Positions 2,352-22,293 of a DNA stretch of 25,413 nt are shown here, in pieces. Below the pieces are notes generated by a model. It was not told where the DNA came from. It saw only the letters and a list, made by a program, of their open reading frames with translations, and ran no database searches. A program made the translations under genes and the position numbers. Where the stretch lies: the IMG/VR virus record IMGVR_UViG_3300026257_000024, positions 1 through 25,413 of that record. One strand, written 5' to 3'. The stretch comes from a virus. Each line of letters begins with the position of its first letter. Positions within the stretch are counted from its first letter, which is position 1.

Positions 2352-2858
2352 ATGTGGGTTGAGGAAGACCTCCACGTGGAAGAGTATTTCTGTCCATTTG
2401 AGAGTGAGATAAACCCACGTTTGTATGATCTTATTGTTAAGGCACCTCAGAATACTGAACCGCCTGATAATATTAATGCAAAGATGACAGACTGGCACAT
2501 AGAATGTGATCAGTTAGTTGATTGGGTAGCAGAATGTATTTACAAAGACTTCTCTGTACCACCTGACACTTTAAAGTGTTCGGAGGTATGGGGAGTTTTA
2601 TATAATGAGGGTGACTTTACTACACCTCATCAACATTCACCTAGTCTATTCTCATTCGCTTACTATGTGAATGCACCCTTTGGTTCTGCTCCATTAGTAT
2701 TCTTTACTTCTAACCACAAAATATATCCTGAACCAGGTATGTTAGTGGTCTTTGAGAGTAGACTCAAGCACGGTGTACCACCTAATCATTGTAGGAATAG
2801 GTGTATGGTAGCAGGTAACTTTATACATGCAAGAGACAGTGGAACCTATGGATTATAA
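2352..2858 (+). CDS. Putative 2OG-Fe(II) oxygenase (168 aa), paralogue of 21742-22293
   Basis: The double-stranded beta-helix signature of the putative 2OG-Fe(II) oxygenase group is visible: TPHQHS (His93, His95), a strand with YYVNAP, then GMLVVFESRLKHGVPP (distal His140) and Arg150, which should bind 2-oxoglutarate. Such enzymes hydroxylate proteins, nucleobases or small molecules using O2, Fe(II) and 2-oxoglutarate; the substrate is unknown. Its core aligns well by eye with the protein at 21742-22293 (EVWG/ECWG, HxH, YYVN, PLV-F, GML-F). Its end overlaps purM by 11 nt. Confidence 0.75.
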   Translation: MWVEEDLHVEEYFCPFESEINPRLYDLIVKAPQNTEPPDNINAKMTDWHIECDQLVDWVAECIYKDFSVPPDTLKCSEVWGVLYNEGDFTTPHQHSPSLFSFAYYVNAPFGSAPLVFFTSNHKIYPEPGMLVVFESRLKHGVPPNHCRNRCMVAGNFIHARDSGTYGL

Positions 2859-3735
2859 AACTTCAGGTGTTGATATAGATGCTGCTAATGCATTTGCAAA
2901 GTCTATACCTATTGCTAGTCATGGATTTGGTGGAACGTTCCCAGTGCCTACTGGATATGAGAAACCTGTCTTAGTATCTGGTGCTGATGGTGTCGGAACT
3001 AAGATGAATATATGTAGAGTTGCTAATGATTATACTACTATTGGTATAGATCTAGTTGCTATGTGTGTCAACGATGTGATCACTAGTGGTGCTAAACCAT
3101 TATACTTTTTGGATTATGTTTCCACTAAGAAGATAGATGACAAGGTTGCTGACATCATGGTTGGTATCCTTAAAGGATGTGAGATAGCAGGGATAGATCT
3201 CCTAGGTGGAGAGACAGCAGAGCATTTCAGACAGAGTGACTATGATCTCGCAGGATTTTGCACAGGTATAGTAGAACAGGCCGAACTTATAGATGGAAGA
3301 CTTATAAAACCAGGTGATAAGATCATTGGACTGGACAGTAGTGGAGTTCATAGTAATGGATATACTATTGTTAATGATGGTCTATGGAGACATCATCTAG
3401 TATATAAAGACCAACCAGAACTCCTTACTCCAACTACAATCTATGCTCCTTTAGTTGCTGATCTATTAGATGAGTATCCTATCGTAGGTATGGCACACAT
3501 CACAGGTGGTGGACTGGTTGAGAATGTCCCACGTATATTACCTAAAGGATTAAAAGCAGAGATTGATTACGATTCTTGGGAGAGACCAGAGATTTTTAAC
3601 ATCATACAAAATAATTGTGATGTGGCAGAGGAAGAGATGAGGAGAGTATTTAATCTTGGCATAGGGTATTGCCTTATTGTACCTCCTGATGTTACTATAG
3701 ATATAGGTAAGGTTATAGGGGAGGTAAAAATGTGA
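2848..3735 (+). CDS. purM: Phosphoribosylformylglycinamidine cyclo-ligase (AIR synthase)
   Basis: PurM closes FGAM to aminoimidazole ribonucleotide using ATP, in purine synthesis. Family blocks are clear: start KTSGVDIDAAN, SGADGVGTK (ATP/substrate loop), VNDVITSGAKPLYFLDY, GGETAEHF, DLAGFCTG, SSGVHSNGYTIV and HITGGGLVENVPRILP. The ATG at 2848 is preferred to one at 2827 because it matches the family N-terminus and gives less overlap with the upstream oxygenase. The protein is about 295 aa, roughly 45-50 shorter than bacterial PurM, with a compressed C-terminal region. A GTGA junction couples it to the next gene. Confidence 0.95.
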   Translation: MDYKTSGVDIDAANAFAKSIPIASHGFGGTFPVPTGYEKPVLVSGADGVGTKMNICRVANDYTTIGIDLVAMCVNDVITSGAKPLYFLDYVSTKKIDDKVADIMVGILKGCEIAGIDLLGGETAEHFRQSDYDLAGFCTGIVEQAELIDGRLIKPGDKIIGLDSSGVHSNGYTIVNDGLWRHHLVYKDQPELLTPTTIYAPLVADLLDEYPIVGMAHITGGGLVENVPRILPKGLKAEIDYDSWERPEIFNIIQNNCDVAEEEMRRVFNLGIGYCLIVPPDVTIDIGKVIGEVKM

Positions 3736-4034
3736 GTAAGAAACCGATACCAGGATCTTACATCGATACTCAAGGTATGGGTGCTCCTGCTGATCCTAAT
3801 TACAAAGGACCAAAGGGAAAAGTAGATTACAAACCTGCCATCGTTAAACCTCGTAGGTTATTCACAGAAGATATGGTTAAGGAGGCAAAGATTCTCATCA
3901 ATGAAGTATTAGATGAGAGAGAAGGTAAGTTTGATTACACATCTTATTTTGACACTGAAAAGTTTAAGCACACAGTATTAGAAGAGGAACCACCTTATGA
4001 CAAGAGACGACACTCCAAGAATAGATCCAAGTGA
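3732..4034 (+). CDS. Hypothetical hydrophilic protein (100 aa), GTG start
   Basis: The frame starts with GTG (MSKKPIPGSYIDTQGM), overlapping the purM stop as GTGA. A strong ribosome binding site, GGGGAGG (3718-3724), lies at ideal distance and decides this start. The protein is Pro/Gly-rich at the N-terminus, helical around residues 43-63 and ends in a basic tail (DKRRHSKNRSK). I recognise no domain. It sits between two purine genes, but nothing in its sequence ties it to purine metabolism. Confidence 0.7.
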   Translation: MSKKPIPGSYIDTQGMGAPADPNYKGPKGKVDYKPAIVKPRRLFTEDMVKEAKILINEVLDEREGKFDYTSYFDTEKFKHTVLEEEPPYDKRRHSKNRSK

Positions 4035-4188
4035 ATACATGCAGAAGGGATGGGACGAATCACCACTAGGTGCTCATCCTTACGTCAAAGGATCCCGTCA
4101 CAATAAGATTGGGATGTGGGTAATGTGGACCTACTATGTTATTTTTATCCTCATGGTCATTAGACTTATAGTTGTATTAAACTCATGA
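3997..4188 (+). CDS. Small single-pass membrane protein (63 aa)
   Basis: A polar N-terminal half (DPSEYMQKGWDESPLG) is followed by a hydrophobic helix at residues about 40-62. GAGG lies upstream of the ATG at 3997, supporting this start although it overlaps the previous gene by 38 nt; an alternative ATG at 4039 would avoid the overlap. The stop overlaps purN (ATGA). No function can be assigned. Confidence 0.6.
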   Translation: MTRDDTPRIDPSEYMQKGWDESPLGAHPYVKGSRHNKIGMWVMWTYYVIFILMVIRLIVVLNS

Positions 4189-4706
4189 GAATAGGAGTAA
4201 TGTGTTCTGGGAATGGCACTAACTTCGAGAACATAGTAAGAACCTGCAGTAAACATGAAGTTGTGTTGATGATACACAACAAGAAAGAGTGTGGTGCCAT
4301 CAAGAGAGCAGACAAATTAGGTATAGCTCACTGCAGGATCTCTACCAAGGATGAGGATCAAATGATCCTGTTGTTTCAGGCATGGAGAGTTGATCTCATA
4401 GTATTAGCAGGATATATGAGGGTGTTATCACCTGATTTCATCAAAGCATTTCCTGATAAGATAATTAATGTGCATCCATCTTTGTTACCAAAGTATAAAG
4501 GAATGTATGCCATCGAACAAGCCCTAGATAGTGGTGATAAGAAGACAGGATGCACTGTTCACTATGTAAATGAAGAGTTAGATGGTGGTAAGATCATAGA
4601 TCAATCAGTCGTGATGATTTGTCCCGATGATGATGTAAAGACTTTAACTCAGAGAATACAACAGGCAGAGCATAGATTGCTTCCATTAGTAATCAATTCA
4701 TTATGA
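4185..4706 (+). CDS. purN: Phosphoribosylglycinamide formyltransferase (GAR transformylase)
   Basis: PurN transfers a formyl group from 10-formyl-tetrahydrofolate to GAR, two steps before PurM acts. The catalytic set is intact: Asn95 and His97 in INVHPSLLPKYKG, Thr124 in GCTVHYV and Asp133 in ELDGG. The N-terminal CSGNGTNFENI is the phosphate-binding loop. At 173 aa it lacks about 30-40 residues at the C-terminus compared with Escherichia coli PurN, beyond the catalytic core. It overlaps both neighbours by ATGA, so it is translated in step with them. Confidence 0.95.
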   Translation: MRIGVMCSGNGTNFENIVRTCSKHEVVLMIHNKKECGAIKRADKLGIAHCRISTKDEDQMILLFQAWRVDLIVLAGYMRVLSPDFIKAFPDKIINVHPSLLPKYKGMYAIEQALDSGDKKTGCTVHYVNEELDGGKIIDQSVVMICPDDDVKTLTQRIQQAEHRLLPLVINSL

Positions 4707-5041
4707 AACCGCAGAGTGCTAAGGGGAAAGGCCGAAGATTCCAACAGTGGGTACGTGACATGCTCATAGAGCATAGAGATGTGCACCCAGAAGATATAGA
4801 GTCACGTAGCATGGGTGCTGGTGGTGAAGATCTCATCATGGCAAGAGATGCTAGACAAAAGTTCCCGTTTAGTATAGAATGTAAGAATGTAGAGAAATTA
4901 AATGTATATGAGGCATATGCACAGGCATGTGCCAATGCAAAGGGTCATGAACCTATCTTGTTTATGAAGAAGAACCATAAGAAACCCCTTGTTGTTGTTG
5001 ATGCCGAATGGTTTATTAAGAATGTTTACAATACCGATTGA
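4703..5041 (+). CDS. PD-(D/E)XK nuclease, Holliday-junction-resolvase-like (112 aa)
   Basis: An N-terminal basic helix (KGKGRRFQQWVRDML) is followed by SMGAGGEDL (Asp43) and PFSIECKN (Glu59, Lys61), the D...ExK catalytic arrangement of small archaeal-Hjc/VRR-like nucleases. The tail ILFMKKNHKKPLVVVDAEWF matches the late strands of this fold. It may cleave branched DNA during replication or packaging, or degrade host DNA. It is coupled to purN by ATGA and overlaps the next gene's start. Confidence 0.75.
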   Translation: MKPQSAKGKGRRFQQWVRDMLIEHRDVHPEDIESRSMGAGGEDLIMARDARQKFPFSIECKNVEKLNVYEAYAQACANAKGHEPILFMKKNHKKPLVVVDAEWFIKNVYNTD

Positions 5042-5597
5042 GTCTTTCAGTGTACCTAACTGGGACCACTGGAAACCAGAAATATTATCTAATCTAACTA
5101 CTGGTAGCACACTAGCAGAGATAAACTCCAGTGGCTACGGTAAGTTTGATGACATGGAGTCGGATTATTTTGACAATAATAATAGTCAAACCCTCCCAAG
5201 ATATTATGATGTCGTTACAGAGGCATTACAACCCGTTCTAGAGGAGTTTGAGGAGTCTTATCCGAGTGATATAAAGATCACAAGTATGTGGTATCAGAAA
5301 ACATTTTCTGGACAGATGCATGGAGTACATAATCACGGTGTTTTAGGTGTGTCTGCTGCCTTCTATATCGAGTTCGATCCACTTATACATAAACCTACTA
5401 CCTTCTATGCACCCTTCCATAATTTTTTTAATGGAGACATGGTATCATATACTCCAGAGGTGAAGGAAGGAGACATAGTATTCTTTCCAAGTTACTTACT
5501 ACATCAACAGGATCCAAACAAGAGTCCTGTTATTAGGACGATAATTTCTTTTAACATCGCAGGTTATACTCCAGTACATCATGAATTACAGAGATAG
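5022..5597 (+). CDS. Putative 2OG-Fe(II) oxygenase (191 aa)
   Basis: Metal ligands fit HGVHNHG (His103 and His105, with His100 as an alternative) and His161 in FFPSYLLHQQ; Arg172 in VIRTIISFN is the expected 2-oxoglutarate anchor. The pattern (HxH, FFPS-x-x-x-H, R-x-x-I-S-F-N) is that of the putative oxygenase group with the ISFN ending. The start chosen is the ATG at 5022, giving MFTIPIESFSVPNW and a 20-nt overlap with the nuclease; an upstream ATG at 4989 lies deep inside that gene. It is the first of three consecutive oxygenase genes. Substrate unknown. Confidence 0.75.
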   Translation: MFTIPIESFSVPNWDHWKPEILSNLTTGSTLAEINSSGYGKFDDMESDYFDNNNSQTLPRYYDVVTEALQPVLEEFEESYPSDIKITSMWYQKTFSGQMHGVHNHGVLGVSAAFYIEFDPLIHKPTTFYAPFHNFFNGDMVSYTPEVKEGDIVFFPSYLLHQQDPNKSPVIRTIISFNIAGYTPVHHELQR

Positions 5598-6096
5598 ATA
5601 TGTCACCGTTGATCTTGAGGATGATGAGTTCTCAAGGATACTTAAAGAGATAGGAGAACCTAAGTATGAACCAACAGAAATCGAGGACGTACGTCAGTCT
5701 TCTGTCGCCTTTATTGAGTCGCAACTCCTCAAAGATGTCATCCAAAGTTATTGTCAGCGAGTTAACGAAGCTGCTAAGTGGCACTTCGATCTCGACTTTC
5801 TGGAGCCTCTACAGATTTCGAAGTATGCAGAGGGAGATAGATATGATTGGCACCAAGACGAATCAGAGTGGTGTAGAAACAAAAGAAAAGAAGAACGAAT
5901 AAGAAAAGTCTCCTTCGTACTTCTTCTGAATGATGACTTCGAAGGTGGAGAGTTTATGTTACTCAATCAAGAGATACCATTAAATAAAGGGTCAGCAATA
6001 TTTTTCCATGCTGACGACTATCATCAGGTTAATGCAGTTACTAAAGGAGAACGTATGAGTTTAGTAGGATGGATACAGGGGCCACCATGGGTATAG
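5581..6096 (+). CDS. 2OG-Fe(II) oxygenase, prolyl-4-hydroxylase-type (171 aa)
   Basis: The P4H-type motif order is complete: YDWHQDES (His91, Asp93), the strand SFVLLLNDDFEGGEF, then YHQVNAVTKGERMSLVGWIQGP (His148, Arg158). The N-D-x-F-x-G-G-E-F block and the closing W-x-Q-G are typical of PKHD-type hydroxylases, which hydroxylate proline or other residues in proteins. It overlaps the previous gene by 17 nt and the next by 10 nt. Target protein unknown. Confidence 0.85.
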   Translation: MNYRDRYVTVDLEDDEFSRILKEIGEPKYEPTEIEDVRQSSVAFIESQLLKDVIQSYCQRVNEAAKWHFDLDFLEPLQISKYAEGDRYDWHQDESEWCRNKRKEERIRKVSFVLLLNDDFEGGEFMLLNQEIPLNKGSAIFFHADDYHQVNAVTKGERMSLVGWIQGPPWV

Positions 6097-6704
6097 ATCA
6101 AGCTATACTTTACGATGGCATGGTTGCCAAACCTCGTACTGATTTTCTGTACACAGAATTCATAGACGAGAAGGCAACTGATGCATTGGTAGATTTTTAT
6201 CACACTCAAGACATCTTTGAGGGTGGTGAAGGGCAGACTATCGATGATCAAGGTGGTGGCATGGTCAACAAAGACATCAAAGACTCCATGGATTATCCTA
6301 TCTTTGTAGGTATCCAAGACCGTAGAGTCAGAGACTTCACTGAGGAAGTCAATCGTGTCTGTCATAACTATGCTGAGAGATTTCCACTGTGTACTAAGAC
6401 AAACATGTGGAAGATGGAAGAGTTCTTTAACCTTCAGTACTATAAACCTGGAGGTGGGTATCATCTATGGCATTGTGAAAGACAATCATCAAGCAGATCT
6501 AACACGTACAGACATCTGGTTTGGGTGGTATACTTAAACGATGTTCCTAATGGAGGTACAGAGTTCTTTCACCAGCAACAATACATAGAAGCAGAGAAGG
6601 CAAAGTGTTGCATCTGGCCATCAGATTGGACATTCACCCACAAAGGACGCAAGTCCGATACTCACGAAAAGATCATAGCAACAGGATGGTATCATTTCAT
6701 ATGA
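6087..6704 (+). CDS. 2OG-Fe(II) oxygenase with HxE ligand pair (205 aa)
   Basis: GGGYHLWHCERQ carries an H-x-E ligand pair (His129, Glu131), followed by the strand LVWVVYLNDVPNGGTEF and CIWPSDWTFTHKGRKS (distal His185), with a basic residue about ten positions on (Lys195) to bind 2-oxoglutarate. Glu in place of Asp is seen in some cyanophage oxygenases. The ATG at 6087 is preferred over 6069: AGGGG lies five bases upstream and the overlap is shorter. It is coupled by ATGA to a 24-codon ORF. Confidence 0.8.
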   Translation: MGIDQAILYDGMVAKPRTDFLYTEFIDEKATDALVDFYHTQDIFEGGEGQTIDDQGGGMVNKDIKDSMDYPIFVGIQDRRVRDFTEEVNRVCHNYAERFPLCTKTNMWKMEEFFNLQYYKPGGGYHLWHCERQSSSRSNTYRHLVWVVYLNDVPNGGTEFFHQQQYIEAEKAKCCIWPSDWTFTHKGRKSDTHEKIIATGWYHFI

Positions 6705-6775
6705 AACGGGTACTAAAATGGATTAAAAAATGGTTAGACTTATCACACCCAACACCTTGGAGGCATCATAAATGA
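6701..6775 (+). CDS. 24-aa cationic microprotein
   Basis: A short frame begins at an ATG overlapping the oxygenase stop and ends in a TGA overlapping the next ATG at 6772, so both ends are ATGA junctions. The peptide begins MKRVLKWIKKWLDLSH and is rich in Lys, Trp and His; its first part could form an amphipathic helix. It could be a translational coupler or a functional membrane-active peptide. No homologue is known to me. Confidence 0.5.
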   Translation: MKRVLKWIKKWLDLSHPTPWRHHK

Positions 6776-7137: not shown

Positions 7138-7152
7138 CATAGGTAAAAATAC

Positions 7153-7182
7153 TTGACAGAAGTTTTAGATTTACTATATAAT
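7153..7182 (+). promoter_or_regulatory. Consensus sigma70-type promoter
   Basis: TTGACA (7153-7158) and TATAAT (7177-7182) are both perfect hexamers, spaced 18 nt; an overlapping TATATA at 7175-7180 gives 16. It lies in the short gap between genes and would drive the three small genes at 7207-7776 with host RNA polymerase, so early expression is expected. Confidence 0.7.
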
Positions 7183-8844: not shown

Positions 8845-8879
8845 CTGAGCACAAATACAAATGGGAGGTACTCCGATGA
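8841..8879 (+). CDS. 12-codon coupling ORF
   Basis: ATG at 8841 overlaps the purC stop (ATGA). The frame MTEHKYKWEVLR ends in a TGA that overlaps the ATG at 8876. It contains GGGAGG (8863-8868), which is the ribosome binding site for the next gene, so it may serve only to deliver ribosomes, or be a remnant of a small gene. Confidence 0.35.
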   Translation: MTEHKYKWEVLR

Positions 8880-9037
8880 AGATTACACAAAAGATTATTG
8901 ATGACCTCACTGAGGCATTAGCACATACCAAGAAGGATGGTACTGAGAACTGGAAAGATGGAGATGAAATAGATGTCTGTCTTGCTGGTACATTTGCAGC
9001 AGATAAATTTATTACATTAATCAATAGATCTAAATGA
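8876..9037 (+). CDS. Small conserved-type protein (53 aa)
   Basis: Preceded by GGGAGG at good spacing, this frame begins MKITQKIIDDLTEALAHTKK and continues with NWKDGDEIDVCLAGTFAADK. The helix-strand composition and coupling on both sides (ATGA at 8876 and 9034) support a real gene, and I recall similar small proteins in other cyanophages. No function is recognised. Confidence 0.7.
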   Translation: MKITQKIIDDLTEALAHTKKDGTENWKDGDEIDVCLAGTFAADKFITLINRSK

Positions 9038-9543
9038 ACATAATCAGGGACTCTATCTCTAAGAAACTACACGATGAATTAAATACTGAGGTCAGATCTT
9101 TAGCAGGTCGTCAGGTTTGGTTGTCTAGTGCAGTAGACTGGTGTGATTCCATCAAGCAAGGTGTTCAGGGTAGTACATTGACCACACCTATGCCTGCTGA
9201 GTTGGGTGATATGTTAACAGAAGAACTAAAGGATCACTTACCCCCTTACGATGAACTGAAGTACTCTTTTTATATTTGGCAAGCAAACTCTGGTATTGCC
9301 ATGCATGATGATAATAACTATAAATTTAGTGGTACTATCTATCTCAATGATGAGTGGTATCCACAATGGGGTGGATTATATGTGTGGATAGATATGGATG
9401 CACCAGATGATGCTGTAGGGCATGCTTTATTACCTAAGGCTCGGACGTGTGTCCTAAATACTCAGAGTGAGTATCATATGGTAACCCCAGTGTCACCATA
9501 TGCTCAAGCACCAAGATTTACAGTACAATTTAGAGCTCAATAG
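9034..9543 (+). CDS. 2OG-Fe(II) oxygenase, prolyl-4-hydroxylase-type (169 aa)
   Basis: SGIAMHDDNNYKFSGTIYLN gives the H-x-D pair (His91, Asp93). The strand TIYLNDEWYPQWGGLYVW, distal His148 in EYHMVTPV and Arg161 in APRFTVQF complete the P4H set. The gene ends in TAG, whose G is the first base of the GTG start of the 1255-aa proline-rich protein, so the two are translationally coupled. That makes the giant protein a natural candidate substrate (inference). It carries a CTAAATA box at 9454-9460. Confidence 0.85.
   Translation: MNIIRDSISKKLHDELNTEVRSLAGRQVWLSSAVDWCDSIKQGVQGSTLTTPMPAELGDMLTEELKDHLPPYDELKYSFYIWQANSGIAMHDDNNYKFSGTIYLNDEWYPQWGGLYVWIDMDAPDDAVGHALLPKARTCVLNTQSEYHMVTPVSPYAQAPRFTVQFRAQ
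9454..9460 (+). promoter_or_regulatory. Possible late promoter box for the giant structural gene
   Basis: CTAAATA lies within the end of the oxygenase gene, 82 nt before the GTG at 9543. It is the only plus-strand CTAAATA noticed inside a coding region; its place just ahead of a likely virion gene makes promoter function plausible. Confidence 0.35.
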
Positions 9544-12500
9544 TGTTAGGTCATACATGTTATAGTTCTGGTCCGATTCCACTCCTACCAGACGGTGCAA
9601 TACCTGGTCAGAATCCTGCTCAATCTCAGGGCACACCTCCACCAGTACCTGTCACGCAGCCTGGTGCAGAGATTAGAACCATAGTTGGTACATGTTATGG
9701 TCCTGCTTTACCTTTAACACCATCAATAGATATACCTCCTTATAGACAGGGAGAACAAGCACCTCCACCTACCATAGATCCTGGCGAAACTATAAGGACT
9801 ATCGTAGCGAGATGTTATCCACCTATAACTCCTGATCCACCTGGTCCACCACCAGATGGTCCACCACCACCTATTATAGAGATACCTAATTTCTGTGACA
9901 TCATACCTTGGGCAGACTTGGGTTTAGATGTACCATCTTTCTGTGGTGAGTTAGATATTATAATTAAACCACCTTTTCCATCACCTGAACTACCTCCATG
10001 GTGGGGAAAGGGTGCTGACTGTAAGCGTTTAGCACCACTGTTGGATATGGATCCACCTGCTGCACGTAAGCATGAAGATTGGAACCAAGGTGCAGAGCAA
10101 CCACCAGACGGTAAGAAGTATGTCTGGGTTGTGCTTAGAGACTATGGAGAAGGTGCATATGCAGTACGTAAGGGTGAAGAATTAGTATGTGACAACGAAC
10201 AGCACCCACTAAACCCTCCATGGGGTAAGTGTGTAGAGGATGCTATCGAGTGTCTCTTTAAACCATATGTTACTGGTACATGGAGACCACCTACTGCTAA
10301 CTGTGAGACATATTACTTTAGAGGTCAGAACTCTACTACAGGTCAGATTTGTGTTAAGAACTGCTTCCCAAATCGTATGCCTATCTATGAGTACAGAAAA
10401 GGTGCTCCAGTAGGTAACATACAGATCATGCCTTTTGGTAGAGGATTCCATAACCGTAGGTTTGTTACTACTAGAGCAGATGGTTCATGGAATGAAAGAA
10501 AGGTACGTTGTGAAGGTGGTAACGCAGTCTTTAATAGTACTAGTACACAGACACAAACTTTTACTGCCAATGGATTGACTATCACTGTCAAGGTCACACC
10601 TATAGATGATGGTGGTGAGTATGATAGTAGATGGTGGGTTGAGTCATGGTCAGGAACCATGCCTGCTATTGGTACTACATGGGAACACTCATGGAATGCT
10701 GGTAAAGGTACAGTATATGTAAAGGTCACTGTTGTTGATGGTGCTGACAGTGGACAAGATCATAGTTATGGTAGAGAGATGGTAGCACCTGCAGGGTATG
10801 ATCGTGTTCATACTGGACCTGCTTTCCATATCTTACAGTACCCTGAGAGGGGCACAGTGCCTCTGTATAAGTTCTATAGTCCTACGACTGTAGATACTTT
10901 CCTTACGACCAATCCAGGTGCTCCAGACACCGAAGGTGCTGGTGAGAGAGCGACTATGAATGCTGCTGGCATGTCACAAGGTGAGATATTAGGGTATGCC
11001 TTTAAGAATAAAGAGGATGCCATTGCATACTTGGGTGAAGACGAACAGATAGTGGAATTGCATAGGTATTTTGCTAACTCTGTTACTAACAGTGCATATA
11101 ATGATCACATGTACTCCATTGTGGAGCAGGGCACTGAGACTCCTCCCAAGTATGGAAAGCGTCAGACATATAGACTACCCACTAACCCTAAGACTTCATA
11201 CATCGTTTCATATAAGATGATGAAGCCTGCTGCTTCTTATAAGAACTCATGGGGTGTTGTTATACACAATAAAGAGTGTACTGAGATCTACTGGACTAAG
11301 ACCATCGAGTCTAATGTTAACCAGAACAGTGAGTTCAGACAGTTTGAGGTTCCATTGTCTGTTCTTAAGACACATCCTGGTCAGGAGATGGGATTCTATC
11401 TCATACCTGATGGGCATGACTATAGTGTAACTAATAACGATGCACCTCAGTTCTATGCGTCTGGTGATGGATGGAAGAGGACAGGAGGTAGTGCTCAGAG
11501 TGATTGGGTGTTCTTCTCTGATCCTCAGATGAATCCAGGTAATAGAAATAAGACCAAGTGGGTAGGTAACAACTGGCAGTGGTGGGAAGACTTACTTGCT
11601 GGTGATGATGACTACGATGACTTTAAGGTACACTATGAGGTATTAGCAGGAGGCGGTGCCTATTATTATGAGGGTGTACAGTGCTATGTCTTTGCAGATC
11701 CTGCACCAGAGAAGATAATGATTGATATAGTTGAGAAGGATAAGTGTTCTACTAATATATTTGATGGTACTTTTGATGATGTACTGTTGACCAGATCAGA
11801 TTGTGGTCCACTAGCACCACCTACTACATGGACTGCAGAGAGTTCTATCATGGGATGTGGTACATGTACTGGTGACTATGTAATGGACATGCATAGGGAG
11901 CAGACACTGAAGGTACTGAAGGGTGCTAGTCTGCAACTGAAATCATTTGGTTGTCTTATCTCTGCACCTGAGCAAGAGTGTATGACCTTCAGGTTCCTTG
12001 TTAAGAAGAATGGTAGTAACGTAGTGGATGAGACCTATGAGTTAGCAACGTTCCCCTTTGTTGGTATGGATATAGGTAACGCTTTTAGTGTTGCTAAGGA
12101 TGACACTGTAACCTTTAGGTTGGAATCGATTGATTCTGGTCCTTACTTCGGCAATGCATCTGCTAACTTTATATTCCTGGCAAATGGTGCTGAGTTCAGT
12201 GGGTCATGGTCTGCTAGGTTGGGTACTATATCTGCTGATGATAAGATTGCTGGTCGTGCTGAGACCTATTCTAGTAACCCTTATGGTGGTGGATCTATTA
12301 AGAAGATGTCTGTTGAGGTATGGGATCATGAGAAGTCAGAGTGGAGTCCTGCTGTTACTGTCTGGGATAATGGACAACAGAATACTAATAATGCTAATGG
12401 TCAGACAGCAGATTGGTCTAATGTATACTTCAGTGGCAACACTTGGAACTGTTCTGGTTTAGACCCATGTCCTGCACCATACTATGAGAATGGTACGACA

Positions 12501-13310
12501 GATCGTAATGGTCATGTACTTACTACTCGTATCAATGCTAATGGTCAGACTACTACTGATGGTATCCAGTATGACAAATTATTTGGACACTCACGTGGTC
12601 TGATTATGAAGGCTGCTGAACCTAATGTTAGGAACACCAGTGACCTAGGTAACATGACTGATTGGGTACATCATTCTATAGGTGACGGTTATACCTCATG
12701 GTTTAATAACAAACAGTTACAGAAGGCAGGTAATGCACAAGATGCTATCAATGACATAGATGCTGTGTATTCAGCAGGTATACAGGCATGGAACGGTGGT
12801 GTCAGTGGGTCTGCATACAATGGATCCTATAGTAAGATGGCATTCTTCCATGACTACGTACTAGGTGCTGCATTGGATGGTACATATAGAACCTTGGTAC
12901 AACCAACAGGTAAGGTACGCATGGCATTCTGGCCCTATGCTGACGAGGGTGATGCAAGTGCAAGAGATAGGTGGGGTTGTGCTATAGAACTATTCGGTTT
13001 GGTTGATGCTGGCAATCACTATAGACAAGGAGACCAATTTGAGTTAGTATGGCCACCTAGGCAACCAAAAGACACTGCTTATCAAGCACTGCCTGGTACT
13101 ACTCCTTACTATCCTAAGGATGATCCCGCTTATTCTTTCCCTGACAGGTTAGAGTTATTGGTACGGGGAGAGAATAATCCAGAGCAGTTCACACCTAGAG
13201 AAGCATTCTATCAAGAGTCACATAACAGAGACTCTAACGTCTGGTTACTCTGTCAGCATAAGCTAGATAGAGTTAAGTTTAGAATCACCATTGATGAGAT
13301 TACAACATGA
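9543..13310 (+). CDS. Large proline-rich multidomain virion/adhesin-type protein (1255 aa)
   Basis: GTG start, overlapping the oxygenase stop (TAGTG). Residues 1-115 are proline-rich with imperfect repeats: TCY/RCY at 5-7, 50-52 and 90-92 and IRTIV at 44-48 and 84-88. Residues 92-115 (from YPPITPDPP) are 14 of 24 proline. Around 440-525 there are DUF5648-like half-repeats (PLYKFYSPTTVDTFLTTNPG and VELHRYF...YNDHMYSI). Around 590-705 there is a DUF4114-like region: GFYLIPDG and WEDLLAGDDDYDDFKVHYEV. The rest is Gly/Asn/Trp-rich beta material. DUF5648 and DUF4114 occur in surface and adhesive proteins, so a host-contact or fibre role fits; virion location is inference. Genes on both sides are 2OG oxygenases or a small coupled protein. 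Confidence 0.7.
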   Translation: MLGHTCYSSGPIPLLPDGAIPGQNPAQSQGTPPPVPVTQPGAEIRTIVGTCYGPALPLTPSIDIPPYRQGEQAPPPTIDPGETIRTIVARCYPPITPDPPGPPPDGPPPPIIEIPNFCDIIPWADLGLDVPSFCGELDIIIKPPFPSPELPPWWGKGADCKRLAPLLDMDPPAARKHEDWNQGAEQPPDGKKYVWVVLRDYGEGAYAVRKGEELVCDNEQHPLNPPWGKCVEDAIECLFKPYVTGTWRPPTANCETYYFRGQNSTTGQICVKNCFPNRMPIYEYRKGAPVGNIQIMPFGRGFHNRRFVTTRADGSWNERKVRCEGGNAVFNSTSTQTQTFTANGLTITVKVTPIDDGGEYDSRWWVESWSGTMPAIGTTWEHSWNAGKGTVYVKVTVVDGADSGQDHSYGREMVAPAGYDRVHTGPAFHILQYPERGTVPLYKFYSPTTVDTFLTTNPGAPDTEGAGERATMNAAGMSQGEILGYAFKNKEDAIAYLGEDEQIVELHRYFANSVTNSAYNDHMYSIVEQGTETPPKYGKRQTYRLPTNPKTSYIVSYKMMKPAASYKNSWGVVIHNKECTEIYWTKTIESNVNQNSEFRQFEVPLSVLKTHPGQEMGFYLIPDGHDYSVTNNDAPQFYASGDGWKRTGGSAQSDWVFFSDPQMNPGNRNKTKWVGNNWQWWEDLLAGDDDYDDFKVHYEVLAGGGAYYYEGVQCYVFADPAPEKIMIDIVEKDKCSTNIFDGTFDDVLLTRSDCGPLAPPTTWTAESSIMGCGTCTGDYVMDMHREQTLKVLKGASLQLKSFGCLISAPEQECMTFRFLVKKNGSNVVDETYELATFPFVGMDIGNAFSVAKDDTVTFRLESIDSGPYFGNASANFIFLANGAEFSGSWSARLGTISADDKIAGRAETYSSNPYGGGSIKKMSVEVWDHEKSEWSPAVTVWDNGQQNTNNANGQTADWSNVYFSGNTWNCSGLDPCPAPYYENGTTDRNGHVLTTRINANGQTTTDGIQYDKLFGHSRGLIMKAAEPNVRNTSDLGNMTDWVHHSIGDGYTSWFNNKQLQKAGNAQDAINDIDAVYSAGIQAWNGGVSGSAYNGSYSKMAFFHDYVLGAALDGTYRTLVQPTGKVRMAFWPYADEGDASARDRWGCAIELFGLVDAGNHYRQGDQFELVWPPRQPKDTAYQALPGTTPYYPKDDPAYSFPDRLELLVRGENNPEQFTPREAFYQESHNRDSNVWLLCQHKLDRVKFRITIDEITT

Positions 13311-13642
13311 GTAACGCTGAAGGATTTGGACCGAAGGCAACTAAGGCAGATAGAGATCTTTATAAGTCTGCTAGAGAGTTGTCTGCTATTCATAAGGTGC
13401 TTAGGAAGCATCCACAGGACAATGCTGGTCGTCGTAAGATGTTAAAGCAACTGAAGAGGTACTATCGTGGTCCTCTTGCTGAACTAGATCGTATTGATAT
13501 GAAGGAACCTACCTTCCCCAAAGATGCTGAGTGGATGAAGACAGATGAGGAACTAGAAGAGATAGAGCAAGAACAGAAGGTTCAGATTAATACAGATAAA
13601 CTTCGTCAATCATTGGGTAAAGATGTTCCAGAAACTAATTAA
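13307..13642 (+). CDS. Highly charged helical protein (111 aa)
   Basis: Coupled to the giant gene by ATGA. The N-terminal half is basic and helical (KSARELSAIHKVLRKH, RRKMLKQLKRYYRGPL); the C-terminal half is acidic (KTDEELEEIEQEQK). There is no known motif. The position directly after a large structural gene suggests a chaperone or minor virion partner (inference). It overlaps the next oxygenase by 20 nt. Confidence 0.65.
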   Translation: MSNAEGFGPKATKADRDLYKSARELSAIHKVLRKHPQDNAGRRKMLKQLKRYYRGPLAELDRIDMKEPTFPKDAEWMKTDEELEEIEQEQKVQINTDKLRQSLGKDVPETN

Positions 13643-14183
13643 TCCTAAGACTGAGACCTATAAGTTAGTTAAGGAGTTCACATTATCACCAGAGTTTCCA
13701 TGGTTCTATGTGGAGAATGCTACACCACAGGATGTATCTAACGATGAGTTCCAGACTGTACCATTCTATAGTCATGTACTGATAGCAAGACCTAAGTGGC
13801 AGGGTATAGGTGGTAACTATATGTTCCCTGAACCTCAGTCAGAGCATTTAACACAGTTCTATCCTCTATTAGAGGAGATTATAGTTGCGAATGAGATACC
13901 AGTCACCACATTGCTCAGATATAATGTGAACTGTACTCATCCACAGGAAGATGATCGGTTATCCACACCACACTTCGATCATCCCTATCCTCACAAGAAT
14001 ATAGTCGTATATCTCCAAGGCGAAGGTGACACAGTTTGTTTCCCAGATGGAGTTGACCCTTCATGGTCAAATGCTGACAGTTTCAGTCCAGAAGAGGATG
14101 ATGTGCTATTATTACAGGGACTACACTGCATGAGACCACCTGAAACAGGAAGGAGGATTATTCTAGTTGCTACATTCCTTTAA
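13623..14183 (+). CDS. Putative 2OG-Fe(II) oxygenase (186 aa)
   Basis: STPHFDHPYPHKNIVVYLQ gives H-x-D (His117, Asp119). EEDDVLLLQGLHCMRPPETG has the distal His168, and Arg177/178 in GRRIILVATF would bind 2-oxoglutarate. The fold order and length fit the superfamily, though it is distant from the P4H-type enzymes upstream. It closes the unit with the giant protein and is followed by a new promoter. Confidence 0.75.
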   Translation: MFQKLINPKTETYKLVKEFTLSPEFPWFYVENATPQDVSNDEFQTVPFYSHVLIARPKWQGIGGNYMFPEPQSEHLTQFYPLLEEIIVANEIPVTTLLRYNVNCTHPQEDDRLSTPHFDHPYPHKNIVVYLQGEGDTVCFPDGVDPSWSNADSFSPEEDDVLLLQGLHCMRPPETGRRIILVATFL

Positions 14184-14255: not shown

Positions 14256-14401
14256 ACTCAACGTGAAGGACGCTTTACGTATCTTAACACTCCGAATGTC
14301 TCAATTACTCACGCTAGGTGTTGTCAAGGAAGCCTCAAACGGATCTAGTCGAAGATCCTAACATCCGTAGGTTAATCTCTACGAGACACTTAACTACTAT
14401 T
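14256..14401 (+). promoter_or_regulatory. Long structured 5' leader
   Basis: There are about 145 nt between the promoter and the ATG at 14402 with no credible gene. Two hairpins exclude each other: GGATCT (14341-14346) with AGATCC (14353-14358), and ACGGAT (14339-14344) with ATCCGT (14363-14368). It may regulate translation or stabilise the mRNA. Confidence 0.4.
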
Positions 14402-14788
14402 ATGTCTATTAAATCAACAATCGCTGCTATTGCAGCAAGCCCATTTCTACTCGCTGGAGCCGCTTTTGCTGGTCCTTATGTGAACGTAGAAAGCAACCTC
14501 TCTTATCCAGATGGAGACTACTCTGCAGCAACTACTGACGTTCACGTTGGGTATGAAGGTGGAGAAGGACAACTAGGATATTATGTCCAAGCTGGTCCAG
14601 CATTCGTACATAGCGAAACTGATTCTGATACAGAAACAGAATTCTCTGGTAAAGTTGGTCTTAACGTAGCTGCTACTGAATCTCTTGGAGTATACGGCGA
14701 AATCGCTGGTATCTCTAATGGCGAAGACAGTGGTGGAGACACCATCATTGACTGGGGTGCTAAAGTTGGTGCTAAGTTCACTTTCTGA
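14402..14788 (+). CDS. Exported outer-membrane-like beta-rich protein (128 aa)
   Basis: A signal peptide is clear: MSIKSTIAAIAASPFLLAG then AAFA followed by GPYVNV, giving a likely cleavage after residue 23. The mature part alternates polar and aromatic or hydrophobic residues in short strands (LGYYVQAGPAFV, SGKVGLNVAA, SLGVYGEIAG) and ends in aromatic Phe (KVGAKFTF), the hallmark of an outer-membrane beta-barrel C-terminus. It resembles a small porin or OmpW-like protein. The longer frame from GTG 14318 is rejected because the signal peptide starts at 14402. Its own promoter and terminator make it an independent cassette. Confidence 0.7.
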   Translation: MSIKSTIAAIAASPFLLAGAAFAGPYVNVESNLSYPDGDYSAATTDVHVGYEGGEGQLGYYVQAGPAFVHSETDSDTETEFSGKVGLNVAATESLGVYGEIAGISNGEDSGGDTIIDWGAKVGAKFTF

Positions 14789-18189: not shown

Positions 18190-18409
18190 TTTTAGAAACA
18201 AAGAGACAGGTGAGATCATCGAGAACGTAGTCATGTCTATGTGTGACCTCGATAAATATAAAGAGGAGCATCCAGAGTTAGAAAGATACTTTGGTAACCA
18301 AGCTCCAAAGGTTGCTTATGGATTACCTAAGCAGTCAGATGGATTTAAAGATGTGATGAGTAAGATACAATCTAATCATCCTGCCGCTGACTTATCAAGA
18401 TTTACCTAA
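18176..18409 (+). CDS. FmdB-like protein lacking the zinc ribbon (77 aa)
   Basis: MPTYDFRNKETGEIIENVV matches the first strands of FmdB-type regulatory proteins (MPTYEYRC-x-x-C-G), but RNKETG replaces the Cys-x-x-Cys-Gly pair, so it cannot bind zinc at that knuckle. The rest (DLDKYKEEHPELERYF) is helical. Such cysteine-less forms are known to me from cyanophages; function unknown. It overlaps the oxygenase by 14 nt. Confidence 0.7.
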   Translation: MPTYDFRNKETGEIIENVVMSMCDLDKYKEEHPELERYFGNQAPKVAYGLPKQSDGFKDVMSKIQSNHPAADLSRFT

Positions 18410-18412
18410 ATT

Positions 18413-19168: not shown

Positions 19169-19872
19169 TGAAAGTGTTTAATCATGTGGGTCCTGCGAGG
19201 AAGTTGGATGAACTTCCCACCCAAAACGTTGAGGGCAGACGATTTTATAAGTCTCCCGAAGGTCATTGGTACCCCTCTGTTACTACTGTGGTTGGTAAAC
19301 AATCCATAGATGGTATAAAGAAATGGGAAGAGAGAATAGGTTGGGTTAAAGCAGAGAAGATTCGTAGAGAATCCTCTTGGCGTGGTACTCAGTACCATAC
19401 TATCGTGGAGTATTATCTTAACAATGACATTACGAAAGTTGAGAAGAGCGAGGGTCTTCCCTCGTACCTTTTTGGGTTTAGTCGTGAGATCCTTGATCGT
19501 ATTGATAATATTCACCTTCTGGAAGCCCCTCTTTATTCTAACGATCTACGGATTGGTGGGCGTGTTGATTGTATTGCTGAGTTTGATGGCGAGCTTGCTA
19601 TAATAGACTTTAAGACAACCAAGGACATCAAGAAGGTGGAATGGTTGGACAAGTATTTTGTACAAGAAGCAGCGTACGCTTACATGTACTACGAACGCAC
19701 TGGTGTGGAGGTTAAGAAACTTGTGACCTTATCTGTTGCAGAGAATGGTCAGACTCAAGTCGAAGAACGCTACGACAAGGCTCCTTACATAGACACACTG
19801 TGTGAGTGGATCAAAGAGTTTCAGATGGAGTTCCTAACTGAATCCATAACTAATGGAGTTATTACAGAATGA
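19168..19872 (+). CDS. RecB-like PD-(D/E)XK exonuclease
   Basis: The motifs run in order: GTQYH (His77), Glu119 in LLEAPLYS, GGRVDCIAEF (Asp134), AIIDFKTTKD (Asp147, Lys149) and the Q-x3-YAY of helix 4 (Gln166). This is the catalytic set of RecB-family exonucleases (Cas4/lambda-like). It probably processes phage DNA ends or degrades host DNA. It lies next to the T4-style 33-32 replication cluster and is coupled to gene 33 by ATGA. Confidence 0.85.
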   Translation: MKVFNHVGPARKLDELPTQNVEGRRFYKSPEGHWYPSVTTVVGKQSIDGIKKWEERIGWVKAEKIRRESSWRGTQYHTIVEYYLNNDITKVEKSEGLPSYLFGFSREILDRIDNIHLLEAPLYSNDLRIGGRVDCIAEFDGELAIIDFKTTKDIKKVEWLDKYFVQEAAYAYMYYERTGVEVKKLVTLSVAENGQTQVEERYDKAPYIDTLCEWIKEFQMEFLTESITNGVITE

Positions 19873-20114
19873 AAGAGCTTGAGGAAAATTTTATGTCACA
19901 AAGTAAGTTTAGTACTTTGGTAGAACATACCGTACAGAATAGTAATGGTCTCATAAACTACATAGAGGCAGTCGCAGCAGTGTGTGACGAATATAATATT
20001 GAGATCGAAGTCGTTAACAAATTGATTTCTAAACCACTGAAGGATAAGATCAAAGCTAACGCACAACTTTTAAATTGTATCAAACGCACAAGTAGGGGGG
20101 TTTTACCATTATGA
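19869..20114 (+). CDS. 33: gp33-like late transcription coactivator
   Basis: In T4, gp33 bridges the host RNA polymerase flap to the sliding clamp and activates late promoters with gp55. The core INYIEAVAAVCDEYNIE, then VNKLISKPLKDKIKANAQLLN, matches the gp33 family pattern (YIEAV, C-E, LIS-x-x-L-K-x-K-I). At 81 aa it is shorter than T4 gp33, as in other cyanophages. The ATG at 19869 is an ATGA junction; the ATG at 19893 has a better ribosome site (GAGG) and may be the true start. Position near gene 32 agrees with T4 order. Confidence 0.8.
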   Translation: MKELEENFMSQSKFSTLVEHTVQNSNGLINYIEAVAAVCDEYNIEIEVVNKLISKPLKDKIKANAQLLNCIKRTSRGVLPL

Positions 20115-20485
20115 ATGAAGATTTCTTCCGTTCTGAAGTGATAGCAAAAGAACTAGATGATCTTCAGACAACTTACAATGAGTTGTTAAAGATGTCTAGT
20201 AAATTAAACACACTAGACAAGGTGCAGCAGTTGGATCATATCAACAAGACGTTAGAGTTGGTTGCCAAGCAGAAAGTATTTTATGCTCGTCTTCAGTTGA
20301 TGAGTACCTATGTCACAAACGAGGAAGATGATCAGTCGTCAGACGTTAAAGAGGTGAAGGAAAGGATCGATATGGTCAGTAACCTATACTCTGGTGGCAA
20401 CAGCAATCTTTTAGATATATTACAGGCGATGGAGGACAAACTCCTGTGTTGGAAGAAGGATTTAGAGGGGGTTGACAAGACCTAA
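20111..20485 (+). CDS. DUF1825 family protein (124 aa)
   Basis: FFRSEVIAKELDDLQTTYNEL, KLNTLDKVQQLDHINKTLEL and VAKQKVFYARLQLM match the DUF1825 pattern of cyanobacterial proteins (FF-S-E-I/V, Y-x-x-L, Q/Y-x-x-F-x-x-R). The protein is helical and acidic, and its function in cyanobacteria is unknown. It occupies the place of the T4 small genes between 33 and 32 and is coupled by ATGA to gene 33. It is probably of host origin (inference). Confidence 0.75.
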   Translation: MNEDFFRSEVIAKELDDLQTTYNELLKMSSKLNTLDKVQQLDHINKTLELVAKQKVFYARLQLMSTYVTNEEDDQSSDVKEVKERIDMVSNLYSGGNSNLLDILQAMEDKLLCWKKDLEGVDKT

Positions 20486-20488
20486 ATA
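20482..20488 (+). promoter_or_regulatory. Late-type promoter box upstream of gene 32
   Basis: CTAAATA (20482-20488) overlaps the stop codon of the DUF1825 gene, as at 7773 and 15471. TTGACA lies at 20472-20477. A start would fall in the palindrome at 20494-20507. Confidence 0.4.
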
Positions 20489-20493
20489 GTATG

Positions 20494-20507
20494 CCATCAT
20501 ATGATGG
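20494..20507 (+). promoter_or_regulatory. 14-bp perfect palindrome in the gene 32 leader
   Basis: CCATCATATGATGG is its own reverse complement, extendable in RNA by a G-U and a U-A pair. It lies 36 nt before the gene 32 ATG, where T4 has an autogenous operator, so it may be a protein or RNA control site. GGAGA at 20534-20538 is the ribosome site. Confidence 0.5.
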
Positions 20508-20543
20508 TAAACAAGCCAAATACAAAAACACACGGAGAATACA

Positions 20544-21446
20544 ATGTCATTTGCATCCCTTAAGAAGTCCTCTAGGTCTTCCATTGCTAGTTTAACAAAG
20601 GAACTAGAGAAACTGAACACTAAGGGCGGCGGTAACGGTCCTGACGAACGACTCTGGAAACCAGAAGTCGATAAGGCAGGCAACGGTTATGCTGTCATTC
20701 GTTTCCTTCCTGCTCCAACAGGAGAGGAACTACCTTGGGCACAGGTATGGTCACATGCTTTCCAAGGACCAGGAGGTTGGTACATCGAGAACAGTCTGAC
20801 TACATTAGGTCAGAATGATCCAGTTGGTGAACTCAACCGTATCCTATGGAACAGTGGTCTGGATACAGACAAGGACGTTGCACGTAAGCAGAAGCGTAAG
20901 CTTTCTTACTACAGTAACATCTTGGTCGTTAAAGATCCTCTACACCCAGAGAATGAAGGAAGAGTCTTCCTATACAAGTATGGTAAGAAGATCCATGACA
21001 AGTTAGTTGAGGCAATGAAGCCACAGTTTGAGGATGAGCAACCCATCAACCCATTCGATTTTTGGAAGGGTGCTGACTTTAAGTTAAAGATTGTCAGGCA
21101 AGATGGATATTGGAACTATGATCGTTCCGAGTTCGCATCACTATCAGTCTTAGGTGACTATGATGATGCTAAACTAGAGGAGATCTATAACCAAGAGTAT
21201 AGTCTCGCAGCATTTACTAATGCTGAGAACTTTAAACCTTACGAGGCATTAGAGAAGAGATTAAACCTAGTTCTAGGTAAGAACAAGGCACGTGTACAGA
21301 CACGTGACGAGGAACTGGAAGATCCTGTGCCAGTTGTAGAAGAGAACACTACGGTCACCGCAGGGTTCGGAAACAGTGTAGAATCATTAAAGACAGATGA
21401 GGATCCTGATCTGTCATATTTTGCACGATTAGCCGAGGAAGGTTGA
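20544..21446 (+). CDS. 32: Single-stranded DNA-binding protein gp32
   Basis: gp32 coats ssDNA in replication, recombination and repair. The basic N-terminus (SFASLKKSSRSSIASL) supports cooperativity, the core has WKPEVDKAGNGYAVIRFLPAP and WYIENSLTTLGQNDPV, and the acidic C-terminus (DEDPDLSYFARLAEEG) contacts other replication proteins. At 300 aa it matches T4 gp32. It has no cysteine at all, so the zinc knuckle of T4 gp32 is absent; Ser, Asn and Gly occupy the positions. The stop overlaps the next ATG (TGATG). Confidence 0.93.
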   Translation: MSFASLKKSSRSSIASLTKELEKLNTKGGGNGPDERLWKPEVDKAGNGYAVIRFLPAPTGEELPWAQVWSHAFQGPGGWYIENSLTTLGQNDPVGELNRILWNSGLDTDKDVARKQKRKLSYYSNILVVKDPLHPENEGRVFLYKYGKKIHDKLVEAMKPQFEDEQPINPFDFWKGADFKLKIVRQDGYWNYDRSEFASLSVLGDYDDAKLEEIYNQEYSLAAFTNAENFKPYEALEKRLNLVLGKNKARVQTRDEELEDPVPVVEENTTVTAGFGNSVESLKTDEDPDLSYFARLAEEG

Positions 21447-21742
21447 TGAAGAAATGGTTACTAGCATTACCTTTGGTCATGTTTGCAGCACCTGCTCAAG
21501 CAGTAACATGGGAACAACTAGTAGAGTGGGCAGAAACGCCCACTCATTACCATTCTCCACCATATCACCATCACCATGGTCATTCACATTACCAGGAACG
21601 TCGTTGGTGTAATCAGATAGTATATAAGGAAGAGTACGTACCAGGCAGACCTGATTACCATGGTAATTGGATGCCAGGACATGTTAACAAGTGGCAAGAG
21701 ACAAATAGGATCCCATGTAGACGGAGGAGACATTATCACTGA
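21446..21742 (+). CDS. Exported His-rich protein (98 aa)
   Basis: The signal peptide MKKWLLALPLVMFAAPAQA is followed by VTWEQ, with cleavage likely after residue 19. The mature protein has a histidine cluster (residues about 35-50, with HHHHGHSHY), two cysteines that could form a disulfide, and a basic end RRRRHYH. This suggests metal binding (Zn, Cu, Ni or Fe) in the periplasm or at the cell surface. The true ATG is 21446 with AGGAAGG upstream; TTG 21443 is rejected. The function is otherwise unknown. Confidence 0.7.
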   Translation: MKKWLLALPLVMFAAPAQAVTWEQLVEWAETPTHYHSPPYHHHHGHSHYQERRWCNQIVYKEEYVPGRPDYHGNWMPGHVNKWQETNRIPCRRRRHYH

Positions 21743-22293
21743 TGCTATATCAAACATATAATAATCCTGAAGCAAAGGAAATGAATCCTAAGCTTCATGA
21801 AAGTGTGAAGAAATACGTTGTTACTGACCTTGCTAAGGGTGGTGCATCAAGAACAGAATTTAACTTCCATGAGAAGAAAATAGACGACCTAAGTCGTCTT
21901 TTTAATTGGATAGAAAATGTGTTACCTCAAGCAGCATTTCATTTCGCTCAGGGTAGTGTTGATGATAAATATGATCCAACTCTATTAGGGTTTGATCCAA
22001 AAAGATTTAAGATAGCAGAGTGTTGGGGTATAGAGTTTAACAAAGGAGATACTGTAGAAGCACACAACCATTTCCCATACTCCATGTCATTCTGTTACTA
22101 TGTTAATGTACCAGACAAGGACACACCACTGGTTCTCTTTAATGAACTAGGAAATAGTAGTGACATGATGGGTGAAGCAGTTCCTGTTGAGGATGGTATG
22201 CTATGCTTCTTCCATTCTAAGACATTTCACTTCGTACCTCCGAGTCAGAGCGACGGACGTTGTACTATCGTAGGAAATATATTATATAATTGA
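21742..22293 (+). CDS. Putative 2OG-Fe(II) oxygenase (183 aa), paralogue of 2352-2858
   Basis: AHNHFPYSMSFCYYVNVP (His108, His110) and GMLCFFHSKTFHFVPPSQS (His163) with Arg173 before CTIVGNI show the superfamily ligands. By eye the core (ECWGIEFNKGD, YYVNVP, PLVLF, DGMLCFF, FVPP, VGN) follows the protein at 2352 block by block. It is coupled by TGATG to the His-rich gene. It is the last plus-strand gene before the convergent baseplate genes. Substrate unknown. Confidence 0.78.
   Translation: MLYQTYNNPEAKEMNPKLHESVKKYVVTDLAKGGASRTEFNFHEKKIDDLSRLFNWIENVLPQAAFHFAQGSVDDKYDPTLLGFDPKRFKIAECWGIEFNKGDTVEAHNHFPYSMSFCYYVNVPDKDTPLVLFNELGNSSDMMGEAVPVEDGMLCFFHSKTFHFVPPSQSDGRCTIVGNILYN

Follow-up and report, generated by a model that had tools for sequence, protein, structure and literature searches.

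The window analysed here, the whole 25,413-base stretch of the IMG/VR virus record IMGVR_UViG_3300026257_000024 (positions 1 to 25,413), carries eight genes, all on the forward strand, for putative 2-oxoglutarate (2OG) and Fe(II)-dependent oxygenases. At the DNA level, the named phages that it matches best are P-RSM6, S-SZBM1 and S-WAM1, all of them T4-like cyanophages, and the window is part of a T4-like cyanophage genome. Four of the proteins have an HxH metal-binding pair: P0001 (2352..2858; H93, H95, distal H140, 2OG anchor R150), P0002 (5022..5597; H103, H105, H161, R172), P0007 (17602..18189; H99, H101, H162, R173) and P0008 (21742..22293; H108, H110, H163, R173). An HxD pair is found in P0003 (5581..6096; H91, D93, H148, R158), P0005 (9034..9543; H91, D93, H148, R161) and P0006 (13623..14183; H117, D119, H168, R178), and an HxE pair with a Lys anchor in P0004 (6087..6704; H129, E131, H185, K195); the genes for P0002, P0003 and P0004 follow one another as a trio. 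An initial annotation had listed eight such genes, each with a metal-binding pair, a distal His and a basic anchor, in at least three motif styles. All eight open reading frames (ORFs) are present, the residues are intact in 8/8 with Arg or Lys as anchor, and the styles divide into four HxH, three HxD and one HxE.

Membership of the 2OG-Fe(II) superfamily, also proposed in that annotation, was borne out by profile searches, as seven of the eight proteins exceed a Pfam gathering score and P0006 is placed there by profile, ligands and predicted fold. P0001 (42.7 bits, E 7.9e-11), P0002 (43.1, 5.8e-11), P0007 (62.8, 4.3e-17) and P0008 (33.6, 5.3e-8) all score above the 27-bit cut-off of PF13759 (2OG-FeII_Oxy_5). 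The matches of P0003 (E 8.2e-17) and P0004 (E 9.7e-9) are to PF13640, and P0005 is above the cut-offs of both PF13661 (E 2e-6) and PF13640 (E 2.3e-6). Narrower models were not reached: P0001, P0002, P0007 and P0008 score 36.7, 37.4, 51.2 and 23.4 bits against the 62.5 of TIGR02466, and P0003, which resembles PKHD-type and prolyl 4-hydroxylases, scores 56.7 against the 143 of the PKHD-type equivalog PRK05467, three other models giving lower scores against higher cut-offs. Six of the eight match phrog_81 (P0001 among them) or phrog_61 (as does P0004, E 2e-35), both named 2OG-Fe(II) oxygenase. P0005 matches only phrog_19810 (E 1.7e-4) and P0006 only phrog_274 (E 1.9e-24), both named “DNA endonuclease V”, and P0006 has no Pfam match up to E 1. 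Among PDB sequences, P0003 matches prolyl 4-hydroxylase and PKHD chains (E about 6e-5 to 8e-5), with no AlkB among the significant ones, and P0007 matches the bacterial protein 3bvc (E 1.1e-6) with HxH on HxH; searches with a P0006 profile, P0004 and P0005 gave nothing under E 0.1.

The double-stranded beta-helix fold is predicted from structural models for P0002 and P0006, and from Pfam homology for the other six. The P0002 model (mean predicted local distance difference test score, pLDDT, 78) is most similar to 2rg4 (Z 16.5) and 3bvc (Z 16.4), followed by a 2OG epimerase, PKHD enzymes and PHD2 at Z 14-15. For the P0006 model (mean pLDDT 86) the top match is the 2OG-Fe(II) oxygenase 6n1f (Z 16.0); next come 3dkq, a putative oxygenase named PKHD-type hydroxylase (Z 14.3), PHD2 (13.9) and AlkB chains (13.0).

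Each of the eight starts either overlaps the preceding ORF, by at most 20 bases, or follows it immediately. The gene for P0002 shares 20 bases at its start with a RusA-like nuclease gene (4703..5041, same strand; phrog_244, E 2.3e-21), that for P0007 shares one base with the end of a thyX-like ORF, and that for P0001 begins directly after the preceding stop; alternative upstream starts exist for the genes at 5022 (TTG 4989), 6087 (ATG 6069) and 17602 (TTG 17599). All eight genes are under purifying selection, the ratio of nonsynonymous to synonymous rates (dN/dS) lying between 0.07 and 0.26 against relatives at 85-97% identity: 0.07 for P0001 (one pair), 0.10-0.11 for P0002 (90-96% identity), 0.12-0.15 for P0003 and 0.11-0.24 for P0008. 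Pairs at 99.5% identity or more, below 60% identity, below 90% coverage or with repeated identity values were dropped, and no ratio was taken from pairs with saturated dS or from two near-identical pairs (1-2 amino-acid changes and no silent change). Near relatives vary the middle residue of the motif (HQH/HEH, HDD/HND, HFD/HID/HRD) while the ligands stay.

Each of the eight proteins has at least one reciprocal best partner among twelve cyanophages, for some at only 27-31% identity. The trio (5022-6704) has its partners in S-SZBM1 (67-73%), P-RSM6 (61-75%) and S-WAM1 (53-70%); in P-RSM6 they stand in the same order after a RusA-like gene, again as a run of three, and in S-SZBM1 and S-WAM1 they are separated by other genes and tRNAs. 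Within this set P0005 has partners only in S-H9-2, S-RIM32 and S-SCSM1 (35-37%), and P0006 has its best in Syn9 (50%) and S-WAM1 (41%), besides four weaker ones (24-30%). P0001 and P0008 are mutually nearest in the tree (42% identity over 74 columns), their reciprocal partners being distant (27-31%). From these comparisons the eight genes look like old, separate lineages and not recent tandem copies. The suggestion in the initial annotation of several distinct targets is partly upheld, in that separate lineages with their own partners fit it, whereas the gene density from which it was drawn proves ordinary (see below).

The classical triad, His-x-carboxylate followed by a distal His, is found in P0003, P0004, P0005 and P0006, and is absent from P0001, P0002, P0007 and P0008, which by homology are members of the superfamily with a predicted variant metal site. 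The missing carboxylate, passed over in the initial annotation, is to us the most interesting point of the locus. The wider class was considered in an alignment of 184 proteins from the twelve cyanophages and the window. The first and the distal His are each present in 184/184, and the second ligand column holds His in 86, Asp in 80, Glu in 18 and nothing else (82, 77 and 17 of 176 when the window is left out); the ligand invariance is partly built in, because the search profiles include those columns, but the split among His, Asp and Glu is not. The anchor is Arg in 147 proteins, Lys in 34 and another residue in three (basic in 181/184), with Lys in all 18 HxE members. Within the HxH class the anchor is basic in 84 of 86, a Ser or Thr stands two residues on in 62 and a Trp precedes the motif in 81. 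No alignment column of the class exceeds 60% Asp plus Glu, so that no conserved acid offers itself as a stand-in for the carboxylate, although the N-terminal parts are poorly aligned and this is not proof. Given the lack of another conserved acid, we read the class as having an iron site of three His residues, which would bind the metal, with the 2OG anchor retained. Consistent with this, a profile alignment places H103, H105, H161 and R172 of P0002 on H117, D119, H168 and R178 of P0006 (67 columns, probability 70%, E 4e-5).

Two solved but uncharacterised bacterial relatives, 3bvc and 2rg4, are also HxH. These PF13759-like proteins share the fold and the HxH...H...R pattern with the phage class, but they are cellular, and when aligned by fold they are 14-17% identical to P0002. 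The pair makes up the whole of the bacterial evidence, since a smaller alignment scan for further cellular HxH proteins gave 52 pattern matches and no relative. A tree of the 184 rows, with only 80 columns, needs four changes of the HxH label, with a single origin no more than possible. In the accessible part of open-licence PMC text, the only printed precedent for three-His or HxH 2OG sites, PF13759 or TIGR02466 was subgroup JFP6 of the JmjC proteins, and the novelty of the class is not firm. JFP6 has an HxHxH motif whose activity its authors, in the part of the paper available, left open; both groups have His for the acid in the 2OG oxygenase fold, but JFP6 belongs to a different branch of that fold (PMC2453528). 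Tentatively, and at somewhat less than even odds, we propose that close to half of the 2OG oxygenases found in marine T4-like cyanophages (82/176 over the twelve genomes), and with them probably the PF13759 family at large, might be natural three-His, 2OG-dependent iron enzymes. If true, it would represent a widespread departure from the 2-His-1-carboxylate rule with the 2OG anchor kept, from which chemistry beyond plain hydroxylation may follow. The possible class is directly expressible and testable.

The reading we prefer, with a probability of roughly 0.55, is that the window encodes eight divergent, intact oxygenases, each dependent on Fe(II) and 2OG and acting on a different target, mostly protein side chains, the four HxH members through three-His sites. 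Each protein would bind Fe(II) and 2OG, activate O2 and hydroxylate or otherwise oxidise its own target during infection, four of them with a 2-His-1-carboxylate site (HxD/E...H) and four with a three-His site (HxH...H) that still uses 2OG. What the data show directly is that all eight are homologous to known oxygenases, that P0002 and P0006 are predicted to have the fold, that the ligands are conserved, and that the genes are under purifying selection, belong to lineages shared with other cyanophages and have overlapping or abutting starts. Our best guess for the targets is side chains of phage or host proteins; mainly protein targets are suggested by the presence of characterised protein hydroxylases among the closest structural matches and, in the case of P0003, among the closest sequence matches. 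PKHD-type hydroxylases and the prolyl 4-hydroxylases, including PHD2, share the fold of the P0002 and P0006 models, sequence with P0003, and the HxD...H...R pattern with P0003, P0005 and P0006; unlike those enzymes, the latter three are single short domains of 169-186 residues that miss the NCBIfam equivalog cut-offs.

Several observations weigh against this reading. Substrate, metal and 2OG binding are all predictions, and the invariance of the ligands is in part a product of the search profiles. Asp-to-His changes in 2OG enzymes are usually harmful to activity. Neither P0005 nor P0006 matches an oxygenase-named PHROG, and no enrichment of oxygenase genes was seen within one or two genes of genes for at least 700, 900 or 1200 residues, so that virion proteins as general targets are unsupported by position. 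In their match to the P0006 model, AlkB chains come close to prolyl hydroxylases (Z 13.0 vs 13.9), and nucleic-acid targets are therefore conceivable.

A special case of the preferred reading, unlikely on present evidence, is that the oxygenases hydroxylate large virion proteins, either the neighbouring 1255-residue protein, if it is a virion protein, or giant tail fibres. The gene for P0005 abuts that for the large protein (9543..13310, same strand; phrog_26996; DUF4114 at E 4.6e-5, below cut-off), whose residues 32-111 are 33% proline and which is a possible candidate substrate; the partners of P0005 in other phages do not abut it. The protein is present in the window, P-RSM6, S-SZBM1, S-WAM1 and P-TIM40, in each with a proline-rich N-terminus (20-33% in the richest 80 residues), independent of the enzyme in the slot downstream. 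Separated from the large protein by a small gene, that slot is occupied by an HxD oxygenase in the window (13623-14183) and S-WAM1, by an HxH oxygenase in P-RSM6 (2750-3319) and by an annotated tryptophan halogenase in P-TIM40 (183746-184885); in S-SZBM1, where the large protein has a rather proline-rich N-terminus, no enzyme is annotated in the slot. Such unlike enzymes in one slot are what one might expect if a common neighbour were modified, though this proves nothing. Across the genomes an oxygenase adjoins 4/19 genes for at least 3000 residues (1.3 expected, P 0.037) and 7/39 for at least 1800 (3.5 expected, P 0.038), although these thresholds of 1500-3000 residues were chosen after the fact (P is 0.10 at 1500 and 0.09 at 2200) and giant genes from related phages do not form an independent sample, which leaves a weak hint. 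At lower thresholds the counts are 12/183 at 700 residues (18.3 expected), 10/109 at 900 (11.3) and 7/65 at 1200 (6.6). The P-RSM6 gene at 2750-3319, considered by position as the partner of P0006, was rejected as such, being an HxH protein. By eye, the N-terminus of the large protein in the window shows degenerate repeats, such as IRxIVxxCYxP, that are built around a Cys-Tyr pair and lie between stretches rich in proline; Cys-Tyr pairs are seen in all five phages.

It is likewise doubtful that some or all of the enzymes act on nucleic acids, in AlkB-like repair or base modification. DNA repair has been proposed in print, to judge from the portions available, AlkB chains reach Z 13.0 on the P0006 model and the P0002 gene overlaps that of the RusA-like nuclease; yet fold likeness does not tell substrate, the PDB sequences that P0003 matches significantly come from prolyl hydroxylases and PKHD enzymes and none from AlkB, and the “endonuclease V” label on the P0006 family, hinting at DNA repair, is not borne out.

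This label deserves attention, as several public records give the name of a DNA-repair nuclease to a gene whose sequence is that of an oxygenase. Among the 15 of 36 records listed for P0006 relatives, five are named “DNA endonuclease V” or “denV” (P-SSM2, S-SSM5, S-TIM4, S-CAM1 in NC_020837, and S-RIM50), the named gene covering all or nearly all of the match; the others are “hypothetical protein”, or that plus a neighbouring gene. The S-WAM1 relative bears the same endonuclease name in NC_031944. Genes of phrog_274 so labelled include those of P-SSM2 (138413-138982) and S-WAM1 (177087-177632) and contigs L265-L268, and those of P-SSM2 and S-SSM5 share the cluster number T4-GC 100. In a 23-row alignment of P0006 relatives, with 13 invariant columns, H117, D119, H168 and R178 are kept in all rows, and six of six “denV”-named cyanophage proteins match phrog_274 and keep the aligned residues. 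Against PF13640, P-SSM2 just reaches the cut-off (27.3-27.4 vs 27) and S-WAM1 and S-CAM1 fall below it; no Pfam family was matched by the S-SSM5, S-TIM4 and S-RIM50 proteins. The denV of T4 (64939-65355) matches only PF03013 and phrog_1183, the phrog_274 search of T4 gave no match, and P0006 matches neither PF03013 nor phrog_1183. We therefore reject the name for the P0006 family: oxygenase ligands are present in 6/6, and T4 endonuclease V belongs to another family, with only the name in common. The survey of 2010, in the part available, lists “denV” among genes of 13 cyanophages and as absent from non-cyanophages, which is odd because T4 has the true denV. A true denV-like enzyme may also exist in cyanophages, since the authors of S-CREM1, in the part of their report available, describe predicted pyrimidine-dimer glycosylases in cyanophages that were earlier called hypothetical. 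What looks like the same kind of error is phrog_2297, “DNA endonuclease”, a name found on the P0004 relatives in P-RSM6 and S-WAM1. The P0003 partner in S-SZBM1 (68301-68819; contig L007 28302-28820; 67% identity) is annotated “ferrochelatase”, as is phrog_3531, a weaker match of P0003, and this is probably another wrong label.

A further explanation, which we consider improbable, would make the HxH members pseudo-enzymes, that is, double-stranded beta-helix proteins that bind metal or ligand without oxygenase activity. They have lost the carboxylate that defines the classical site, but a decayed site should drift, and its constancy counts against this idea: His is the sole alternative to Asp or Glu at the position in all 184 proteins, the anchor is basic in 84/86, and the four HxH genes of the window are under purifying selection. 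Very improbable is a main effect on the host 2OG pool, and hence on NtcA/PII nitrogen signalling, as auxiliary metabolic genes: the idea, also raised in the initial annotation, is not new, having been put forward for cyanophages rich in these genes (Sullivan et al., 2010, PMC3037559, in the portion available), but a mere drain needs no diversity, and eight divergent enzymes with separate partners and individually conserved active sites point instead to distinct substrates, the 2OG binding of the eight being itself a prediction. These alternatives may hold side by side, and their probabilities need not add up to one.

The density of oxygenase genes, which the initial annotation took as unusual, is at the high end of normal. 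Eighteen phage records were searched with four family models (phrog_81, PF13640, phrog_274, phrog_61), and 13 of them (the twelve cyanophages and T4) made up a census of ORFs of at least 60 residues by iterated profiles seeded with the eight window proteins; records W10, W13, W16, W17 and W18 lie outside it, some with fewer matches (for example W16 and W18). The counts are 24 in P-SSM2, 23 in S-SSM7, 22 in S-SCSM1, 19 in P-RSM6, 17 in S-WAM1, 13 in S-SZBM1, 12 in P-TIM40 and Syn9, 10 in S-RIM2 and S-RIM32, 7 in S-H9-2 and S-PM2, and 8 in the window. T4 has none in the census and no match with PF13640, phrog_274 or phrog_61, phrog_81 giving one weak partial match (E 4.5e-4, 16 bits). The peak number in any 19,942 bases is 9 in P-RSM6, S-SSM7 and S-WAM1, 8 in S-SCSM1 and Syn9, 7 in P-SSM2, 6 in S-SZBM1 and P-TIM40, 5 in S-RIM32, 4 in S-H9-2 and S-PM2, and 3 in S-RIM2; with eight or nine such genes in five of the twelve cyanophages, we rejected density as a signal. 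Oxygenase genes are clustered in general (62/176 have an oxygenase neighbour, against 26.9 expected and a maximum of 44 in 1000 shuffles), with runs of four in Syn9 and S-SSM7, so that the trio of the window is part of a general habit.

That cyanophages carry such genes, as the initial annotation held, is confirmed by the 7-24 per genome found here and by print. Published counts, from the parts of the reports available, are 24 for S-SCSM1, 9 for S-SZBM1 and 10 for S-CREM1, where our census has 22 for S-SCSM1 and 13 for S-SZBM1; the figure usually quoted from the 2010 survey is 1-5, with phytanoyl-CoA-dioxygenase-like proteins counted apart (Sullivan et al., 2010, PMC3037559, likewise in part). 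From the census, the carriage of many copies would seem to be a common trait and no peculiarity of S-SCSM1. As far as those reports go, the window shares with S-SCSM1, S-SZBM1 and S-CREM1 the superfamily, the Pfam families and the genome-wide scatter, with no difference in kind. The eight genes are thus an accurate observation of gene content already known, to which the present analysis adds the possible three-His class and the corrected name. Six 2OG oxygenase genes, seemingly a mixture of the HxH and HxD types, also lie on a viral contig of 10.5 kb (L181, 39-10007).

The gene order in the window is real, and the eight genes are due neither to chance nor to an assembly error, given that overlapping contigs agree with it at 99-100% identity and that the joint at about 8873-9013, where one other assembly breaks, is spanned by contigs L019 (99.4%) and L021 (93%). 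The RusA-like nuclease and a DNA end protector were named by profile match, and purM, phoH, thyX and gp32 from annotated features beneath the matches to named phages; transaldolase, purN, purC, glutaredoxin and tail genes are putative names that we read from ORFs and syntenic annotation. Immediately before the gene for P0008, an ORF of 99 residues (21443-21742) has a signal-like start and a His-rich stretch, and no Pfam match up to E 0.1. A 344-residue protein is encoded at 173-1207, with no PHROG match up to E 0.01 and no Pfam match up to E 0.1. At 14318-14788 lies a gene for an outer-membrane-like beta barrel of cyanophage type (PF24653, E 2.8e-42).

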